Source: Micromonospora sp. FIMYZ51 (lineage in GTDB: Bacteria > Actinomycetota > Actinomycetes > Mycobacteriales > Micromonosporaceae). From it: a DNA stretch of 64,000 bases. The notes under the pieces were generated by a model. The model saw only the letters and a program-made list of their open reading frames with translations. It made no database searches and had not been told where the DNA came from. The stretch spans positions 5,638,501-5,702,500 of the forward strand of contig NZ_CP134706.1 of NCBI RefSeq assembly GCF_038246755.1. Direction: 5' to 3'. The position numbers and the translations under genes were made by a program. Of this stretch, positions 38,334-47,730 are shown one piece after another; the stretch's first letter is position 1, and every line of letters starts with the position of its first letter.

Positions 38334-41300
38334 TCAGGGGCGGGTACGACGACGCGCGCCACCTCGACGGGAGCGCCGCCGGCCGGTACCGCTCTCCGTA
38401 CCGTCCTCCTCGTCGGCCTCACCGAGCGCGTCCGGGTCGTCCGGTGCGGCGAGCCGGGCCGACTCGCCCTGCTGGCTGTCGGCGACGTCCGGCGCGGCCG
38501 GCGTATCCGTCTCGTACCGGGACAGGTCGTAGCCCATTGTGTCGTGGAAGTCGACGTCGACGGTGCTCGTGGTGTCGGTCTCGGTGACCTCGACCACGGT
38601 TCGCTCGGCCGGTGCGCTCTTGCGCGCCCGACGGCGGGACGATCCGCTGCCCTGCTCGGTGGCGACCGGAGCGGCGGCCGAGGCGACCGCCTTGACCTTG
38701 TCGCCGCCGCCCGACCGTGGCTTCTCCGGCACCGGCTCGGTGTGGATGATCAGCCCTCGGCCCTTGCAGCACTCGCAGGTCTCGCTGAACGCCTCCACCA
38801 GCCCGGCACCGATCCGCTTGCGGGTCATCTGCACCAGACCCAGCGAGGTGATCTCGGTGACCTGGTGCTTGGTCCGGTCCCGGCCGAGGCACTCGGTCAG
38901 TCGACGCAGCACCAGTTCCCGGTTCGACTCCAGCACCATGTCGATGAAGTCGATCACCACGATGCCGCCGATGTCGCGCAGCCGCAGCTGGCGGACGATC
39001 TCCTCGGCCGCCTCCAGGTTGTTGCGGGTGACCGTCTCCTCAAGGTTGCCGCCAGCCCCGGTGTACTTACCGGTGTTGACGTCGACCACGGTCATCGCCT
39101 CGGTCCGGTCGATCACCAGGTGGCCGCCGGAGGGCAGGAAGACCTTCCGGTCGAGCCCCTTGAGAATCTGCTCGTCGATGCGGTACTCGGCGAAGACGTC
39201 GGTGGTGCCGACGTGCCGACGCAGCCGGGTGACCAGGTCCGGCGAGACGTGCGACAGGTACGACTCGACCATGTCGTACGACTGGTCGCCCTCGATCACC
39301 AGCTCGCGGAAATCCTCGTTGAACAGGTCCCGGACCACCCGGATGACGAGGTCCGGCTCCGCGTAGAGCAGCACCGGTGCCCCGCCCTCGGCGGCCTTGG
39401 CCTGGATGTCCTCCCACTGCGCCTGGAGCCGCTTGACGTCCCGGGCCAGCTCGTCCTCGCTGGCCCCCTCGGCCGCGGTCCGGACGATCACCCCGGCGCC
39501 CTCCGGCACCAGCTTCTTCAGCGCGTCGCGCAGTCGCTTGCGCTCGGTGTCCGGCAGCTTGCGGCTGATGCCCGAGGCGTTGCCGCCCGGGACATACACC
39601 AGGTGCCGGCCGGAGAGCGCGATGTGGCTGGTCAGCCGGGCACCCTTGTGACCGATCGGGTCCTTGGTGACCTGCACCAGCACCGAGTCGCCGGACCGGA
39701 GCGCCTGCTCGATCGAGCGGGCCCGCCCCTCCAGCCCGGAGGTGTCCCAGTTGACCTCACCGGCGTACAGGACCGCGTTGCGGCCCCGGCCGATGTCCAC
39801 GAACGCCGCCTCCATGCTGGGCAGTACGTTCTGCACCTTGCCGAGGTAGACGTTGCCGGCCATGGTGGCCGCCGAGTTGCGGGTCACGTAATGCTCGACA
39901 AGTACGCCGTCCTCCAGCACGGCGATCTGCGTACGGTCACCGCGTTGGCGTACCGCCATCACCCGGTCAACCGCCTCCCGGCGGGCCAGGAACTCGGATT
40001 CGCTGAGGATCGGCGGGCGGGTCCGACGCTGCTCGCGGCCGTCCCGACGGCGCTGCCGCTTGGCTTCCAGGCGGGTCGAACCGGAGACGCCCTGCACCTC
40101 GTCGACAGTCTTGCGCGGCTCTCTGATCTTCACCACCGTGGGCACGCCGTCGTCGTCCGCAGCGGCCTCGGTGTCGCCGGCTCCCCGGCGGCGGCGACGC
40201 CGGCGTCGCCGGGTCAGCCCGTCGCCCTCGGCCTCGTCGCCGTTCTCCTCGTCGCCGGCCTCTTCGTCGGCTTCGCTGGTTACCGCCTGGACCGGCTCCT
40301 CGGCCTCGTTCTCGTCGGCGTCCTCGGCACCGCCCTTACCGCGACCACGGCCCCGGCGACCCCGTCGGCGACGGCGGCGCCCGGACAGGCTCTCCTCGTC
40401 GTCCTCGTCCTCCTCGGCGTCCTCCTCGGCGGTCCCGGTGGGCTCCTCCTCGACGGTCTCGACCTCCGGCACCGGCTCGGCTTCCCGCCGGCTGCGGCGG
40501 CGCCGCCGCGACGGTTCGGCCGGTTCCTCGGCGGTTTCCTGCTCGGCCAGGGCCAGCGCCTCGGCAGCCGCGGCGGCGCGGGCCGCGGTGACTTCCTCCG
40601 GAGCCATGAACAGCACAGTCGGTGCGGTGAGCGCAGCCCGCCGCCGACGGGACCGGGACTCTGGTGCCGGCTCCGCAGCCGCCGGGGACGCGGTCGGCTC
40701 GCCAGCCGCCGGGGACGGTACCGGCTCGGCAGGCGCTGCCGTACCCGGTGCCGGCTCGGCCTCGACGTTCGCGTCCGGCCCGGCAGGCAACGTGGCGGCA
40801 GCGCTGGGCGGCACCGCGCCCGCGCCGAACTCGGTACCCGCCGCGGGCTCCGCGCCGGCCGCCGGCCCTTCGTCCGGGGCCGGCTGCGCACCGGCCGCGG
40901 ACCGCTCCGCCGCCGCGGACCGCTTCCGGGCCGGAGATCGCTTCGCCGCCGGCTGCTCGGCTGCTTCGGGCTGCTCGGTGGCAGGTTCGGCCGCCGCGGG
41001 GGCCGCCTTCTTGCGGCGGGTACGGGTGACCTTGAGTGGCGGTACGACGTCGCCGTCGGCGGGTGCCACCTCGGCCGCGTCCATCGGCTCCTCGGCGACC
41101 TGCTGGGTACCCGTGGCCTTGCGCCGACGACGTGGGGTCTTCGCCGCAGTGTCCAGGTCGGCGGCGACCGGGGCGAAGACCTCAGCCTGGGGTGCCTCTC
41201 CGCTGCCCATGGGCGAGCTGCTGGGCGCCTCCACCGGGGCGTCGGTCTGCTCGGGCTGGCTGAGCGGGCTGCTCCGGCGTCGTGAGGTACGTCGCTTCGG

Positions 41301-41534
41301 CGGCGTACCGACGACCGCCGCGTCCCCCAGGTCGGCGGTGCCGCTCACCGCGTCCCCGGTCTCCCTCGGCCCCACGGTCTCCGGCCCGACGCCGGTCGCG
41401 GCCGGTGGCAACCCGGTGCCCGGGTCGGTCGCGGCCGGTGGCGCCCCGGTCGCGGCGGCGGTGCTGTTCTCGGCGGTCTCGGCGGCCGGGTCAACGCCGG
41501 TCCGTTCGCCGCCCTCGGGCTCGTTCTCGAGCAT
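38334..41534 (-). CDS. rne: ribonuclease E/G
   Basis: An endoribonuclease of RNA turnover and rRNA processing (1066 residues). The first ~470 residues are low-complexity, acidic and proline/alanine-rich with basic patches (RRRRGRRGRGRGKGG), presumably disordered and RNA/protein-binding. The catalytic core follows: an S1-like domain (MAGNVYLGKVQNVLPSMEAAFVDIG), a DNase I-like domain with the metal-binding aspartates in VVDVNTG and VIDFIDM, and the Zn-link CECCKGRG. The C-terminal tail is short and basic, ending RRTRP. The ATG at 41534 (MLENEPEGG) is preferred. The gene leads the rne–rplU–rpmA–obg order. Confidence 0.95.
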   Translation of the reverse strand: MLENEPEGGERTGVDPAAETAENSTAAATGAPPAATDPGTGLPPAATGVGPETVGPRETGDAVSGTADLGDAAVVGTPPKRRTSRRRSSPLSQPEQTDAPVEAPSSSPMGSGEAPQAEVFAPVAADLDTAAKTPRRRRKATGTQQVAEEPMDAAEVAPADGDVVPPLKVTRTRRKKAAPAAAEPATEQPEAAEQPAAKRSPARKRSAAAERSAAGAQPAPDEGPAAGAEPAAGTEFGAGAVPPSAAATLPAGPDANVEAEPAPGTAAPAEPVPSPAAGEPTASPAAAEPAPESRSRRRRAALTAPTVLFMAPEEVTAARAAAAAEALALAEQETAEEPAEPSRRRRRSRREAEPVPEVETVEEEPTGTAEEDAEEDEDDEESLSGRRRRRRGRRGRGRGKGGAEDADENEAEEPVQAVTSEADEEAGDEENGDEAEGDGLTRRRRRRRRRGAGDTEAAADDDGVPTVVKIREPRKTVDEVQGVSGSTRLEAKRQRRRDGREQRRTRPPILSESEFLARREAVDRVMAVRQRGDRTQIAVLEDGVLVEHYVTRNSAATMAGNVYLGKVQNVLPSMEAAFVDIGRGRNAVLYAGEVNWDTSGLEGRARSIEQALRSGDSVLVQVTKDPIGHKGARLTSHIALSGRHLVYVPGGNASGISRKLPDTERKRLRDALKKLVPEGAGVIVRTAAEGASEDELARDVKRLQAQWEDIQAKAAEGGAPVLLYAEPDLVIRVVRDLFNEDFRELVIEGDQSYDMVESYLSHVSPDLVTRLRRHVGTTDVFAEYRIDEQILKGLDRKVFLPSGGHLVIDRTEAMTVVDVNTGKYTGAGGNLEETVTRNNLEAAEEIVRQLRLRDIGGIVVIDFIDMVLESNRELVLRRLTECLGRDRTKHQVTEITSLGLVQMTRKRIGAGLVEAFSETCECCKGRGLIIHTEPVPEKPRSGGGDKVKAVASAAAPVATEQGSGSSRRRARKSAPAERTVVEVTETDTTSTVDVDFHDTMGYDLSRYETDTPAAPDVADSQQGESARLAAPDDPDALGEADEEDGTESGTGRRRSRRGGARRRTRP

Positions 41535-41665
41535 GGACGTTCTCCAGTTCTGGCTTCCCCGGGCGCGGGTGAGCGCTGCCACGCAGGGTTGCCGCAATGG
41601 TGTTTCCCCGGGCGCACGGGCGTGCGCGACCGGCGAAGTCTGCCTGTCTGGGCGCCGACCGTCGG

Positions 41666-42442
41666 TCAGCGTCCGCCGATGGTTGCCCCGTCGCGGTCCG
41701 CGTCCAGCGGGTCCACGATCGCCCCCTGCGCGGTCAGCGTGCCCTGAGCCAGCCGGATCACCTTCGGGGCCACCGGCGGCTCCAGGCCGGCCACCACGCG
41801 GAGGCCGGAAAGGACGTCATCGGGTCGTACGGACGGGGTGACCTGCCGCACGACCAGTTCGAGTATCGCACACGGTACGGCCGGCGCCCCGGAAGGCGTC
41901 GCCGGTGCGCCATCTACATCGATGACAATCACCGCCCCACGCGCATCGAAGGTCCGCCTCCCCTGCTTGGTCATCCGCTCGACCAGCACCTCCTCGGCTG
42001 CGGTGAAGGCGGCGACCGCCTTCACCGCAACGTCGGGATCCACCTCCGGCAGCTCGATCCGCCAACGGGACGCCTCGATCCGGTCGGCCAGGCTGCCCCC
42101 GGTGGCCACCACCGCGTCGAGTACGTCGAGGCCGGGCGAGAGCGCCGCGTCCAGGGCCATTCGCAGTTGCGTCGGTTCGACCGGCTCACGCAGACCGATC
42201 TCCAGGTACTCCGCCTCGCTCGCCACCCCGGTCGGCGCCGCGCTGGCGTACGAAATCTTGGGGTGCGGGGTGAAGCCCTGGGAGAACGCCACCGGGACGC
42301 CGGCACGGCGCAGGGCCCGCTCGAACGCCCGGGCGAAGTCCCGGTGTGAGGTGAACCGCAGCGGCCCCCGCTTGGCGTACCGGATCCGGACGCGCTGGAC
42401 GACCGGTGCCTGGCCGCCTACGGGCTGTGGTTTCTTACTGAT
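41666..42442 (-). CDS. TIGR03936/DUF2344 radical-SAM-associated protein; no canonical start codon
   Basis: A 258-residue protein that accompanies the B12-binding radical SAM protein encoded just upstream; the two are fused in some bacteria (family knowledge). The conserved block YAKRGPLRFTSHRDFARAFERALRRAGVP is fully encoded, so translation must begin upstream of it. In this frame there is no ATG, GTG or TTG between the upstream gene's TGA and GTG 42292, which would cut off about 50 conserved residues. The best candidate is ATC at 42440-42442, 7 bases after AGGAG, giving (I/M)SKKPQPVGG. The frame is continuous with the upstream gene across one TGA, so read-through is the alternative. Confidence 0.85.
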   Translation of the reverse strand: MSKKPQPVGGQAPVVQRVRIRYAKRGPLRFTSHRDFARAFERALRRAGVPVAFSQGFTPHPKISYASAAPTGVASEAEYLEIGLREPVEPTQLRMALDAALSPGLDVLDAVVATGGSLADRIEASRWRIELPEVDPDVAVKAVAAFTAAEEVLVERMTKQGRRTFDARGAVIVIDVDGAPATPSGAPAVPCAILELVVRQVTPSVRPDDVLSGLRVVAGLEPPVAPKVIRLAQGTLTAQGAIVDPLDADRDGATIGGR

Positions 42443-42475
42443 CTTCGTGCTCCTCGCTGGAGGGCCCGACCACTG

Positions 42476-44461
42476 TCACTGCTGGGCGCCGGTGGGCAGC
42501 CGCAGGCCGTTGACCGGGGTCAACGGGAGCAGCTTCCGGCCGGTCGGGCCGATCTGGATCTCGGTGTCCATGGTCGGGCAGACGCCGCAGTCGAAACACG
42601 GCGTCCACCGGCAGTCGTCCTGCTCGTACTCGCTGAGCGCGTCCTGCCAGTCCTGCCAGAGCCAGTCCTTGTCCAGGCCCGAGTCCAGGTGGTCCCAGGG
42701 CAGGACCTCCAACTCGTCGCGCTCCCGGGTGGTGTACCAGTCGAGGTCGACCCCGAAGCCGGGCAGCACCTCAGCGGCGGCGTCCACCCAGCGCTGGTAC
42801 GAGAAATGCTCGCTCCAGCCGTCGAACCGGCCGCCGTTCTCCCAGACCCGGCGGATCACCGCGCCGACCCGGCGGTCGCCCCGGGACAGCAGGCCCTCGA
42901 TCAGCGACGGCTCGCCGTCGTGGTAGCGGAAGCCGATCGCCCGACCCAGCGAACGGTCCGCGTTGATGGCCTGCTTGAGCAGCTTGAGCCGGCCGTCGAT
43001 GACCTCCGGTCGCTCCATCGCCGCCCACTGGAACGGGGTGTGCGGCTTCGGCACGAATCCGCCGATGGAGACGGTGCAGCGAATGTCCTTGGACCCGGTG
43101 GCGGCGCGACCGGCCTTGATCACCTCGTGCGCCATGTCGGCGATTTCGAGGACGTCGGCGTCCGTCTCGGTGGGCAGCCCGCACATGAAGTACAGCTTCA
43201 CCTGCCGCCAGCCGTTCGTGTACGCGGTGACCACCGTGCGGATCAGGTCGTCCTTCGACACCATCTTGTTGATCACCTTGCGGATCCGCTCCGACCCGCC
43301 CTCCGGGGCGAAGGTCAGACCGGTCCGCCGGCCGTTGCGGGACAGTTCCTGGGCCAACTCGATGTTGAACGCGTCCACCCGGGTCGACGGCAGTGAGAGT
43401 GACACGTTTGTGCCCTGGTACTGCTCGGCCAGGCCGGAGCACATGTCGCCGATCTCCGAGTGGTCGGCCGACGAGAGCGACAGCAGGCCCACCTCGTGGA
43501 AGCCGGAGAACTCCAGCCCCTGCTGCACCATCTGCCCCACGGTGGTGATGGACCGTTCGCGCACCGGACGGGTGATCATGCCCGCCTGGCAGAACCGGCA
43601 GCCCCGGGTGCAGCCCCGGAAGATCTCCACCGCGTACCGCTCGTGCACCGTCTCGGCGAGCGGGACGAGCGGCTTACGCGGGTACGGCCAGGCGTCCAGG
43701 TCCATCGTCGTGCGCTTGTGTACCCGGAACGGCACGTCTGCCCGGTTCGGCACGACCCGCTGGATCCGGCCGTCGGGCAGGTAGTCCACGTCGTAGAAGC
43801 GCGGCACGTAGACGCTCTCGGTACGGGCCAGCCGCAACAGCAATTCGTCGCGGCCACCCGGGCAGCCCTCGGCCTTCCACTCCCGGACGATCGCGGTGAT
43901 CTCCAGCACCGCCTCCTCGCCGTCGCCCAGCACGGCGGCGTCCACGAAGTCGGCGATCGGCTCCGGGTTGAACGCGGCGTGCCCGCCCGCCACGATCACC
44001 GGGTCGGCATCGGTACGGTCGGCCGCCAACAGCGGGATGCCGGCCAGATCGATCGCGTTCAGCAGGTTGGTGTAGCCCAACTCGGTGGCGAACGACACGC
44101 CGAACAGGTCGAACTCCCGCACCGGGCGGTGCGCGTCGACGGTGAACTGCGGCACGCCGTGCGTACGCATCAGCTGCTCCAGATCCGGCCAGACCGCGTA
44201 CGTCCGCTCGGCCAGGGTGTCGGGCAGCTCGTTGAGCACCTCGTAGAGGATCTGCACGCCCTGGTTGGGCAGCCCCACCTCGTACGCGTCCGGATACATC
44301 AACGCCCAGCGCACGGTCGCCGCGTCCCACTCCTTGACCACCGCGCCCAACTCGCCACCCACGTACTGGATGGGCTTGGTCACCTGGGGCAGCAACGCCT
44401 CCAGTCGGGGCCAGACGGAGTTTTCCGCGACCGGGCGCGGCGTGGTGGACGGGACGCTCAT
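42476..44461 (-). CDS. TIGR03960 B12-binding radical SAM protein
   Basis: A 661-residue protein with an N-terminal cobalamin-binding-like region (residues 80-230) and a radical SAM domain whose cluster motif is GCTRGCRFCQAG. A C-terminal region carries further cysteines (CRWTPCFDCGVCP). The reaction is unknown; the family is often found beside rne/rng with a DUF2344 partner. The ATG at 44461 starts MSVPSTTPR; an open frame upstream is minisatellite-encoded and is rejected. The stop TGA (42476-42478) is in frame with the next gene. Confidence 0.93.
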   Translation of the reverse strand: MSVPSTTPRPVAENSVWPRLEALLPQVTKPIQYVGGELGAVVKEWDAATVRWALMYPDAYEVGLPNQGVQILYEVLNELPDTLAERTYAVWPDLEQLMRTHGVPQFTVDAHRPVREFDLFGVSFATELGYTNLLNAIDLAGIPLLAADRTDADPVIVAGGHAAFNPEPIADFVDAAVLGDGEEAVLEITAIVREWKAEGCPGGRDELLLRLARTESVYVPRFYDVDYLPDGRIQRVVPNRADVPFRVHKRTTMDLDAWPYPRKPLVPLAETVHERYAVEIFRGCTRGCRFCQAGMITRPVRERSITTVGQMVQQGLEFSGFHEVGLLSLSSADHSEIGDMCSGLAEQYQGTNVSLSLPSTRVDAFNIELAQELSRNGRRTGLTFAPEGGSERIRKVINKMVSKDDLIRTVVTAYTNGWRQVKLYFMCGLPTETDADVLEIADMAHEVIKAGRAATGSKDIRCTVSIGGFVPKPHTPFQWAAMERPEVIDGRLKLLKQAINADRSLGRAIGFRYHDGEPSLIEGLLSRGDRRVGAVIRRVWENGGRFDGWSEHFSYQRWVDAAAEVLPGFGVDLDWYTTRERDELEVLPWDHLDSGLDKDWLWQDWQDALSEYEQDDCRWTPCFDCGVCPTMDTEIQIGPTGRKLLPLTPVNGLRLPTGAQQ

Positions 44462-44526
44462 GATGCCCAAGGGTACGCGCTCGCCCGCCGGCCGCCGCGC
44501 CACACCTGGCAGGCTCGTCGCGGTTC

Positions 44527-44643
44527 GAGGCAAGGCTGTACCCGACAGGGCCGGCGCGGTCGAGGCAAGGCTGTACCCGACAGGGCCGGCGCGGTCGAGG
44601 CAGGGCTGTACCCGACAGGGCCGGCGCGGTCGAGGCAGGGCTG
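44527..44643. repeat. 35-bp minisatellite
   Basis: Three full 35-bp units (44527-44561, 44562-44596, 44597-44631), each starting GAGGCAAGGCTGTACCCGAC or the GGCAGGG variant, and a partial fourth that merges into the dispersed repeat copy 4. It lies upstream of the radical SAM gene. The 313-bp gap 44462-44774 otherwise holds only copy 4 and the promoter side of the next gene. Confidence 0.93.
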
Positions 44644-44695
44644 TTAACAAGGGGCCCCTGCTCTACCGCAGGCGTTAACAAGGGTCCCTTCCTTT
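44643..44695 (-). repeat. dispersed intergenic repeat, copy 4
   Basis: Read on the minus strand, the copy gives AAGGAAGGGACCCTTGTTAAC, then GCCTGCGGTAG, then AGCAGGGGCCCCTTGTTAAC. It lies between divergently transcribed genes, directly next to the 35-bp array, so it is not confined to gene 3' ends. Confidence 0.92.
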
Positions 44696-44774
44696 CAGCT
44701 GCCGGACGGGCCGGATTCGGTCGGGGTGGCACTCCGGTACTAACCTCGGGTCGGCGCGAGAGGAGATTGCCGCG

Positions 44775-46361
44775 ATGCCGGAGCCGCAGCCGGGAGCAGA
44801 CCGGCCGGTCGACGGGAACCGTCCGGATTCACACCGGAACGGTGAGCCGGCGGTCACCCGGGAACAGCTGCCCACCCCCGTACCAGCGACGGACGGGCCG
44901 GTCACCGGCCCCGACGGCACCCACCCGCTGCCCACCGAGCCGCTGCTTAGCCGCCAGACCGACACCGAGCCGCTGGGTGGCGGCCAGACCGAGCCGCAGA
45001 CCGACGCCCAGTCGGGCGGCGACCGCCCTCCCGCGCCGGCGCCCCCGGCCGACAGCGCCTCGGCGCCAACGGCCGAGCCAGCACCGGCACCCCCGGCCGA
45101 GGCAGCACCACCGACAGCAACCGAGACAGCACCGCCGACAGCAGCCGAGGCAGCACCACCGACAGCAACCGAGACAGCACCGCCGACAGCAGCCGAGACA
45201 GCAGCGGCGCCGGTGGCCGAGGTCGGCCCGCAGGGCACCCGCATCATGCCCGACGCCACGGCGGAGCCACCGGCACCGCGCTGGAGCGGCTCGGCTCCCG
45301 TACCGCCGGCCGCGCCGCGCCGTCGCGGATGGGGTGAGTCCGCCGAGCCGACCCCGCCGCCGCCGATCGCGCCGCCGTCCGGGCGGCCCCAGGAGCCGGA
45401 GCACCAGACTCCGGTGGATCCGTGGGCAGGGGTGGACACCAGCGGCTGGGAAGTGCCCTCGGCCGATTTTCCCGCCCTGCCGCCGACGCTGTCCTACCCG
45501 AATCCGCCGCCGACCCGGCCATATTCCGGGCCTCCCGCACCGCCGGCCGCCCCGCTGCCACCGATGTCGGCCACTCCGGTACCGCCGATGTCGCCGGCCG
45601 CCCCCATGCCGCCGGCGTATTCACCGCCGGGCGGGCAGCCACCGGTTCACCACGCTCCGCCGGTCTCTCCGGCCGGCCGGCCACCCGCCCCGGTCGGACC
45701 GCCACCGCCGGCATCGCCCCCGCGCGGCTGGCGAGGCGCGAAGAAGGCCCGGCCGGTCGCTCCACCGCCCGGTTGGCAGGCGCCGCCGGGGTACGTGCCG
45801 GTCAAGGTACGCAAGCGGCGGCGTTGGCCCTGGGTGCTGTTGCTCACCCTGGCCTGCTGCTGCGGCTGCCCGGCCTACTACGGCGTACCGATGGCCACCC
45901 AGTATCCGGCGAACGCCAACCTGCCGCAGCAGGTGGCCGACCTGCGACTGCGTGAGGACCCGCGCAACGCGCAGGCCGCCCGGCAGTTGGAGACGCAGAC
46001 CCGGGCAGCGCACTGGCTCGCCGAGGACACCTTCGCCGGCATCTACACCACCAGCGGAGGCAAACGGGTGACCGTCTTCGGCGGCACCGGCTTCCGGTTC
46101 ACCCCCTCGGCGGACGCCGACGCCGAGATCGAACGGCTCACCGAGCAGTACGCCCTTGGTGAGGCCCAGGTGGTGGAGAGCCGCGTACGGGGTCGGCACG
46201 AGCGCTGCGCGGTAGGCAACGCCGACGGCGAAGGGGTGGTGGTCTGCACCTCGGTCGACCACGGCAGCATCACCACCGCCGTGTTCACCAACCTGTCGGT
46301 GGACGACAGCGCCCAACTCCTCGGCACCCTGCGGGAGCAGATCGTCACCACGAACGGCTGA
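44775..46361 (+). CDS. proline-rich single-pass membrane protein of unknown function
   Basis: A 528-residue protein. The first ~345 residues are Pro/Ala/Thr-rich and disordered, with an octapeptide repeat (APPTATET/APPTAAEA, 24-bp units at about 45103-45200). A basic stretch KVRKRRRWP and one transmembrane helix (VLLLTLACCCGC) follow at about 350-370. The C-terminal ~165 residues form an exported domain with VTVFGGTGFRF and two cysteines (ERCAVGN and VVVCTSVDHGSI). The same pattern appears in the product of 60528-61211. I do not recognise the family. ATG with an upstream GAGGAGA. Confidence 0.83.
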   Translation: MPEPQPGADRPVDGNRPDSHRNGEPAVTREQLPTPVPATDGPVTGPDGTHPLPTEPLLSRQTDTEPLGGGQTEPQTDAQSGGDRPPAPAPPADSASAPTAEPAPAPPAEAAPPTATETAPPTAAEAAPPTATETAPPTAAETAAAPVAEVGPQGTRIMPDATAEPPAPRWSGSAPVPPAAPRRRGWGESAEPTPPPPIAPPSGRPQEPEHQTPVDPWAGVDTSGWEVPSADFPALPPTLSYPNPPPTRPYSGPPAPPAAPLPPMSATPVPPMSPAAPMPPAYSPPGGQPPVHHAPPVSPAGRPPAPVGPPPPASPPRGWRGAKKARPVAPPPGWQAPPGYVPVKVRKRRRWPWVLLLTLACCCGCPAYYGVPMATQYPANANLPQQVADLRLREDPRNAQAARQLETQTRAAHWLAEDTFAGIYTTSGGKRVTVFGGTGFRFTPSADADAEIERLTEQYALGEAQVVESRVRGRHERCAVGNADGEGVVVCTSVDHGSITTAVFTNLSVDDSAQLLGTLREQIVTTNG

Positions 46362-46401: not shown

Positions 46402-47730
46402 GTGTCCCTATGGGTTTCGTCAAGCGGGGACGGGGCTGGTCGGGCGGGGTTGGTAGGGGATCTTGTCGCGGAGCATGGCGTATAGGACGTCGCAGCGGCG
46501 TCGGGCGAGGCAGATGAGGGCGGCGTTGTGGCGTTTACCTTCGGCGCGTTTGCGGTCGTAGTAGGCGCGGCTGACGGGGTCTGCGAGGGATGCGAACGCG
46601 GCGAGGAAGAACGCGCGTTTGAGGTTCTTGTTGCCGCCTCGGGGTGGGTGCTCGCCGCGGATGCTGGTGCCGGAGCGTCGGGTGACGGGGGCGAGGCCGG
46701 CGTAGGCGGCGAGGTGGCCGGGGGTGGCGAAGGCGGTGCCGTCGCCGACTTCGAGCAGGATCCGGGCGGCGGTCCTGACGCCGATGCCGGGCATCGATGT
46801 CAGGACCGGGGCAAGAGGGTGTGCATCAAGCATCCTCTCGACCTGGTCGGCGACTTGGTCGCGTTGGTGTAGGACGTCGCGGAGGCTGTCGGCGAGACGG
46901 GGCAGGATCGTCTCGGCTGCTTGGGTGCCGGGGACGGTGACGGTCTGTTCGTCGAGGGCTGCCATGAGCTGTTCGATGAGCCGTTCACCCATGCGGGGTG
47001 CGTGGACGGCGGCGATCGAGAGTAGTTTGCGGCGACCGGCTTTGCGGAGTCCGGCCGGTCCGCCGCAGCGCGACAGCAACTCCAGCACGGCCTTGTGGTG
47101 CACCTTCGGGCCGAGAACCCGTTCCAGGGCGGGATGAATCTGGGTGAGTAGTCCCCGGATACGGTTCGACACGCGCGTGGCCTCGCCAGCGAGGTCGTCG
47201 TCGAAGCCGACGAGGACCTCCAACTCGGCCAGAGCCTCATCTCCGACGTCGACCCGCCGCAGCGTGTGCGGCAGGGTGCGGGCGGCATCAGCGATGACAT
47301 AGGCGTCGCGGGCGTCGGTCTTCGCGCTTCCGGGGTGCAGATCGGCGATCCGGCGCATCGCCAGGCCGGGCAGGTAGGCCACCTGATGACCGCATGCCCG
47401 AGCCACCGCGACCGGCAGGGCGCCGATCGAGGCGGGCTGGTCGACCACCACCAGCACCCGACCGTGGCCGGCGAGTTTGTCGAACAACTGCCTCAGCCGA
47501 GCCTCGGTGTTCGGCAACGGTGCGTCGTGCAGCCGCTTGCCGTCCGGCGCCAACCCGACCGCGTGATGATCACCCTTACCGACATCCAACCCGAGGTAGA
47601 CGCCGTATCCGCCGTGCACCACACCCGCCTCCACGCATCGTCCGTGGCCTCGGCCACAGGTCCAGGCGTCGGACTGCCGGCACCCACGTTACGAAGAGAC
47701 CAACCCCAAACAGGGCGGCCGTGTCCCTAT
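46402..47730 (-). mobile_element. IS110-family insertion sequence (proposed limits)
   Basis: The element encodes one transposase on the minus strand. Identical 10-bp sequences GTGTCCCTAT lie at 46402-46411 and 47721-47730, on either side of the transposase, and are the best visible boundary marks. IS110 elements usually lack terminal inverted repeats and make no or very short target duplications, and I see no inverted repeats here. The right limit is uncertain and could extend to about 47880. It inserted between the membrane-protein gene and plsC without disrupting either. Confidence 0.65.
46420..47634 (-). CDS. IS110 family transposase (DEDD/serine recombinase)
   Basis: A 404-residue transposase that appears intact. 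The N-terminal DEDD_Tnp_IS110 domain starts YLGLDVGKGDHHAVG (D17) and includes SAKTDARDAYVIAD. The C-terminal Transposase_20 domain has MPGIGVRTAARILLEVGD and AGLAPVTRRSGTSIRG, with the serine-containing motif proposed as the second catalytic part. These enzymes use an RNA encoded at the element end (bridge RNA) to choose donor and target. The start given is the most upstream GTG/ATG-type codon; the true start could be a few codons later (at YGVYLGLD). Confidence 0.93.
   Translation of the reverse strand: MEAGVVHGGYGVYLGLDVGKGDHHAVGLAPDGKRLHDAPLPNTEARLRQLFDKLAGHGRVLVVVDQPASIGALPVAVARACGHQVAYLPGLAMRRIADLHPGSAKTDARDAYVIADAARTLPHTLRRVDVGDEALAELEVLVGFDDDLAGEATRVSNRIRGLLTQIHPALERVLGPKVHHKAVLELLSRCGGPAGLRKAGRRKLLSIAAVHAPRMGERLIEQLMAALDEQTVTVPGTQAAETILPRLADSLRDVLHQRDQVADQVERMLDAHPLAPVLTSMPGIGVRTAARILLEVGDGTAFATPGHLAAYAGLAPVTRRSGTSIRGEHPPRGGNKNLKRAFFLAAFASLADPVSRAYYDRKRAEGKRHNAALICLARRRCDVLYAMLRDKIPYQPRPTSPVPA

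Follow-up and report, generated by a model that had tools for sequence, protein, structure and literature searches.

IF3 rejects start codons other than AUG, GUG and UUG. In the parts of the literature drawn on here, few bacterial genes are recorded as having a fixed non-canonical start, namely infC, pcnB, sigR, ccpN and cvfC1, and the available text of a Listeria study counts 6 of 2265 conserved genes with such a start (PMC13068326). According to the relevant sections of PMC5472188, the Streptomyces infC gene starts with ATC, the Streptomyces sigR gene starts with GTC and its repression by IF3 was shown by experiment, and such non-canonical starts are misannotated in public genomes. In S. aureus, cvfC1 (AUU) and ccpN (AUA) have an extended Shine-Dalgarno (SD) sequence and are reported to give about 10% of the AUG output in poor medium, with up to 30% for ccpN in rich medium (PMC13009471). 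In M. smegmatis, ATT was described as robust and ATC as low and, with an SD, above background, while CTG was not enriched in the reporter (PMC4633059). This last result does not favour an easy use of CTG.

We analyzed a window of 64,000 nucleotides from Micromonospora sp. FIMYZ51, in which two neighbouring genes lie on the minus strand. Gene A (42476..44461, with the ATG at 44461 assumed as its start) encodes a B12-binding radical SAM protein of family TIGR03960 (685.5 bits, cut-off 462.3). Gene B (41666..42442, 258 codons from an ATC plus the stop) matches TIGR03936 (185.7 bits, cut-off 71.9) and PF10105, DUF2344 (173.1 bits, cut-off 23.8), and these profile scores bear out the family calls of the original prediction. 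As also predicted, the TGA stop of gene A (42476..42478, minus strand) is in frame with gene B in this genome, which is a matter of chance here. It is followed in the same frame by 11 sense codons (CAG TGG TCG GGC CCT CCA GCG AGG AGC ACG AAG) and then by ATC AGT AAG AAA at the start of gene B. The ATC (42440..42442, minus strand) comes 7 nt after AGGAG (42454-42450), which is part of the SD site GAGGAG (42450..42455, minus strand). The stop-to-stop frame of gene B contains no ATG, GTG or TTG until a GTG at codon 51 (42290..42292, minus strand), so the first canonical start would cost 50 residues, in line with the loss of about 50 conserved residues foreseen from the sequence. The original prediction offered three readings, namely initiation at AUC, read-through of the UGA, and a recent ATG-to-ATC mutation or sequencing error. 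Comparison with related genomes supports the first and speaks against the other two.

The surroundings of the two genes were also scanned. The mRNA structure at 42400-42480 was nothing special (folding z-score 0.50), Rfam gave zero matches at the gathering score in 41300-45000, and no sigma-70-type promoter was matched within 41400-44800; a scan of the same 41400-44800 interval gave two terminator-like matches on the plus strand vs 0.9 expected. The ATG of gene A at 44461 has no evident SD and is preceded at 8 nt by a -10-like TACCCT (44461-44475, minus strand), so the gene A mRNA may be leaderless. Just upstream of gene A, at 44519-44644, a G+C-rich unit of 35 bp is repeated in tandem (3.6 copies, 97% matches). 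Farther on, a Pro/Ala-rich reading frame at 44775-46361 contains 48-bp and 24-bp repeats at 45073-45205, and an IS110-family transposase gene is located at 46423-47634 on the minus strand (NF033542, 239.9 bits).

A DNA search with the junction matched every genome of the genus (160 of 160), a set (g1) that appears to comprise Micromonospora and Salinispora. ATC stands at the gene B start in all 160 of them. The full pattern, with AGGAG, a gap of 6-7 nt, ATC and the codons that follow, is present in 149 genomes; in the remaining 11 the flanking codons vary, and all 11 had ATC when read. A conserved ATC in relatives had been named in advance as the outcome favouring unusual initiation, and it is the outcome obtained. 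That an ATG mutated to ATC recently, or that the sequence is in error, has only the oddity itself in its favour; the genus-wide ATC refutes both, and their probability is negligible. Our core comparison set consists of 92 distinct contexts among loci L001-L118. Codon 1 in this set is ATC in 85 loci, ATT in 7 (Actinoplanes, Paractinoplanes and Couchioplanes records) and canonical in none, with the first two bases invariant across all 92. AGGAG precedes codon 1 in 92 of 92 loci, at a spacing of 7 nt (62 loci) or 6 nt (30 loci).

Read-through of the UGA would produce a fusion of gene A and gene B. Fusions of this type are said to occur naturally in other phyla, and here the TGA lies in the frame of gene B with no other stop in between. 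However, in the 57 distinct genus loci whose gene A stop could be read, the distance from that stop to the ATC leaves remainders modulo 3 of 0 (22 loci), 2 (18 loci) and 1 (17 loci), the gene A stop in relatives may be TGA, TAG or TAA, and the SD is conserved between this stop and the ATC. We rejected read-through because gene B falls in a random frame relative to the upstream stop, and we consider it extremely improbable.

Triplet-periodic conservation begins exactly at the ATC. Entropy upstream of this codon is flat in the 92 loci (1.59, 1.51 and 1.62 bits by phase), and from the codon onwards variability has a 3-base periodicity, with 0.17, 0.28 and 0.87 bits at positions 1, 2 and 3 of codons 2-14 and 0.10, 0.00 and 0.56 bits in codons 18-40. 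The codon is thus conserved across species, with protein-level constraint from there on, and a canonical start is absent at the conserved N-terminus, whose stretch ISKKPQPVGGQAPVVQR (42392..42442, minus strand) spans 17 codons with the ATC as the first. In 11 distinct Streptomyces loci, periodicity likewise begins at a CTG (0.03, 0.06 and 0.29 in codons 2-15; 1.14, 1.11 and 1.08 upstream). Lineages with a canonical start have it at roughly the homologous position, in most cases 15-18 codons upstream of the motif RxRYAKRG. The downstream gene rne starts with ATG in 71 of the 71 distinct contexts where it was found. The AlphaFold model of gene B has a mean pLDDT of 80.7, with residues 1-10 below 50. 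Its first strand (residues 16-24) and first helix (residues 33-46) precede codon 51, so a start at GTG 42292 is predicted to remove both.

Translation might start elsewhere, at an upstream in-frame ATG or GTG, at the GTG of VVQR, at an internal ATC (residue 20) or at GTG 42292. An ATG is found two codons before the ATC in 4 of the 160 genus genomes, every one of the 16 Streptomyces loci read has an in-frame GTG at VVQR or close to it, and public models among the matches listed use many of these positions. Yet the window's genus conserves none of these codons, and canonical codons are often missing altogether: in 57 of the 92 distinct loci the stretch from the upstream in-frame stop to codon 1 holds none, and in 18 the first 60 codons are free of ATG, GTG and TTG. 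Moreover, the conserved SD is spaced for the ATC, codons 2-14 are already constrained at the protein level, and the ATG two codons upstream is only 1 nt from AGGAG. We rejected GTG 42292 as the start and regard initiation at any of these other codons as very unlikely. The aligned loci argue that translation of gene B almost certainly initiates at AUC.

We extended the comparison beyond the genus. A TIGR03936 search of the class gave matches in 283 of 394 genomes, and the start was read in 90 of these 283 (30 loci and 60 stretches); further loci were read from other genera of the family (42) and from the Actinoplanes-like genus g4 (52 more). We left out 10 loci without a recognised motif, 6 without the motif in another set, and duplicates with identical contexts. 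The 256 distinct actinobacterial loci, a hand-picked and uneven sample of related loci whose counts are not a prevalence, comprise 180 near-cognate, 71 canonical (42 ATG, 27 GTG, 2 TTG) and 5 unassigned starts. Near-cognate starts, a call that required an SD match of at least 4 bases, were ATC in 107 loci, CTG in 42 and ATT in 31, and 80 of the 180 are from the window's genus. CTG is used in most of family f19, in genus g88 of f22 and in genus g70 of f21, which the names of the best protein matches for one of its members identify as Streptomyces. For g115 of f22 the start was taken to be GTG, and two f19 loci of genus g68 have a GTG directly after the CTG; this GTG was counted as the start. 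All 13 distinct Streptomyces contexts have CTG followed by GGC AAG CGN CAG. The predicted start is ATC across the genus, ATC or ATT in many family members, and CTG at the homologous place in Streptomyces and some other families. In all, more than two hundred related actinobacterial genomes share a near-cognate start of this kind (ATC, ATT or CTG) downstream of a good SD.

Outside the class, a canonical codon was found near the motif in most loci read, in a set where 6 of 28 rows gave no motif match; locus L360 has no canonical codon in the 35 codons shown. The protein was matched in none of the 19 listed genomes of genus g16 of the same family (G269-G287), and TIGR03936 in none of the 20 listed genomes of the order-mate family f2. 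Lineage-specific loss is possible in both cases. A separate observation concerns f19, where the leader GAGGAAAGGAGNNGNG before CTG CCC CCC GCA is conserved nearly base for base (L161, L162, L166, L168, L172, L176-L180, L184, L186, L187 and other f19 loci). Where its distance to gene A was measured, it is about 390-580 nt, and conservation this close would suit an additional control element; one set of these rows was chosen by this very pattern.

The type of start codon is related to the distance from gene A and to the SD. Among measurable loci, 0 of 130 near-cognate starts and 52 of 63 canonical starts are within 5 nt of the gene A stop, the exceptions being 11 canonical starts that lie more than 5 nt away. 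Of the 180 near-cognate starts, 169 have an SD run of at least 5 bases, compared with 5 of the 71 canonical ones, a contrast that is partly circular because near-cognate calls needed an SD run of 4; the contrast in distance is free of that circularity. The same division is seen within genus g4. All 33 near-cognate loci have an SD run of at least 5 bases and none of the 31 measured is within 5 nt of the stop, whereas none of the 16 ATG loci has such a run and all are within 5 nt. In a tree of the Actinoplanes-like group, based on gene A and gene B stretches, we counted 5 state changes (bootstrap range 5-7), 2 of them forced by supported branches. A wider, poorly resolved tree gave 24 state changes with 4 forced by well-supported branches, and paired sign tests were not significant because supported pairs were too few.

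The combination of a weak codon with a good SD, or of a strong codon with a poor SD, suggests selection for low initiation. From this rule we infer stabilising selection that holds initiation at a low rate by either of two routes, and it is likely that the near-cognate codon is retained for low expression. A different explanation is that ribosomes ending gene A re-initiate at gene B, with the AUC being tolerated and unselected and IF3 having no regulatory part. This would be helped by the proximity of the gene A stop, which is 11-187 nt upstream of gene B in the window's genus (57 measured) and 8-15 nt upstream in many Actinoplanes-like genomes, where it overlaps or adjoins the SD. However, the CTG lineages have a near-cognate codon despite a gap of 55-817 nt, or with gene A not found in the stretch read, and the genes that directly abut the stop mostly have ATG or GTG. 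Neutral tolerance should also admit other codons, yet the genus has ATC in 160 of 160 genomes. We consider re-initiation with an unselected AUC unlikely.

Selection against in-frame GTG near the weak start was also considered. In loci L001-L118, Val codons are GTG in 10 of 258 cases in codons 2-30 vs 1155 of 2306 later, and the window's genus likewise avoids in-frame GTG near the start (7 of 222 vs 62 of 109). The avoidance was not seen in other near-cognate groups (56 of 153 vs 30 of 63; 33 of 62 vs 48 of 99), and for this reason we dropped it as evidence.

Taken as a whole, AUC initiation at a weak codon that keeps gene B scarce, probably under discrimination by IF3, is a reading in which we have good confidence. 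The initiator tRNA would translate gene B from AUC, positioned by the good SD, and the weak codon would be kept if only small amounts of the gene B protein are needed. IF3 would limit this translation as it does for infC and Streptomyces sigR. Where gene B abuts or overlaps the gene A stop and lacks a good SD, mostly ATG or GTG is used, which would give a similarly low rate. By analogy, we lean towards IF3 control of gene B, which shows the strong SD and the non-canonical codon expected of an IF3-repressed gene. In the same genome, infC itself starts with ATC AGC after GAGGAGG, and all 31 actinobacterial infC loci read have an ATC start, with a GTG six codons downstream of it in several Micromonosporaceae. 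In these infC loci, rpmI starts with ATG in all 28 cases where it was found, and rplT with ATG or GTG in 30 of 31, the last being an unchecked motif match.

The structural model of gene B is predicted to have a TruA-like pseudouridine-synthase fold, and Pfam, in the available text of PMC7955657, groups DUF2344 with pseudouridine synthase families. Gene B nevertheless differs from the genome's own TruA, with no sequence match between them (hhalign probability 0.2%) and no visible counterpart of the TruA stretch GRTDAGVH, and unlike TruA-type enzymes it stands beside a radical SAM gene. The Asp of this stretch is presumably the catalytic one; residues 47-105 in alignment A1, compared at the sequence level, contain no invariant Asp. 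A sequence search for a solved structure of gene B gave none (best E 0.65). Gene B probably serves the B12-radical-SAM enzyme (gene A) in an RNA-modification role. A bolder and doubtful proposal sees the TIGR03960/TIGR03936 pair as an RNA-modifying system within the translation machinery, with its supply tied to how stringent initiation is. In that case gene B would belong with infC, and with sigR in Streptomyces, to an IF3-governed actinobacterial near-cognate set, its RNA-modification product would feed back on the function of the ribosome or tRNA, and its start codon (AUC, AUU or CUG) would be a retained control element and not a relic.

Public models place the start of the protein at many different positions. 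Among 120 listed matches for the window protein, none starts on the Micromonospora-type ATC codon; among the Streptomyces-side matches, also 120 as listed, 11 begin on the CTG codon and 81 at the V of VQR, which is GTG in the Streptomyces loci read. Among the matches listed, public gene models mostly misplace the start, and the ATC/CTG assignment would correct many of them. No report of the gene B start codon was found by our searches of open-licence PMC papers. The gene lends itself to comparative study of start-codon choice under IF3, with several families of one class, three near-cognate codons and a simple rule, in which a weak codon goes with a good SD and a strong codon is used mostly when abutting the upstream stop. 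It is also a candidate for the list of IF3-repressed genes called for in the consulted sections of PMC5472188.

Similar to infC, gene B has a near-cognate start after a strong SD. Unlike infC, which has ATC in every locus read, its codon varies by lineage: ATC, ATT or CTG, with ATG/GTG where the gene abuts gene A. Since gene B does not encode an initiation factor, autoregulation of the infC type is not implied. Gene B belongs to another gene family than E. coli pcnB. As with the AUU of E. coli pcnB, an inefficient start codon would limit expression (PMC13009471, PMC1780047, as far as their available text goes). Gene B shares with cvfC1 and ccpN, whose output is well below that of AUG in the parts of PMC13009471 drawn on, a conserved near-cognate start and an extended SD; those are other genes, of Firmicutes. 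Streptomyces sigR resembles gene B in having a conserved non-canonical start with an extended SD, in being actinobacterial and in being misannotated publicly, but its codon is GTC, and the sections of PMC5472188 available to us give no evidence for it outside Streptomyces. Repression by IF3 is experimental for sigR and would apply to gene B by inference. Gene B is a further example of the known near-cognate starts, unusual for its breadth and for the rule by which its start codon switches.
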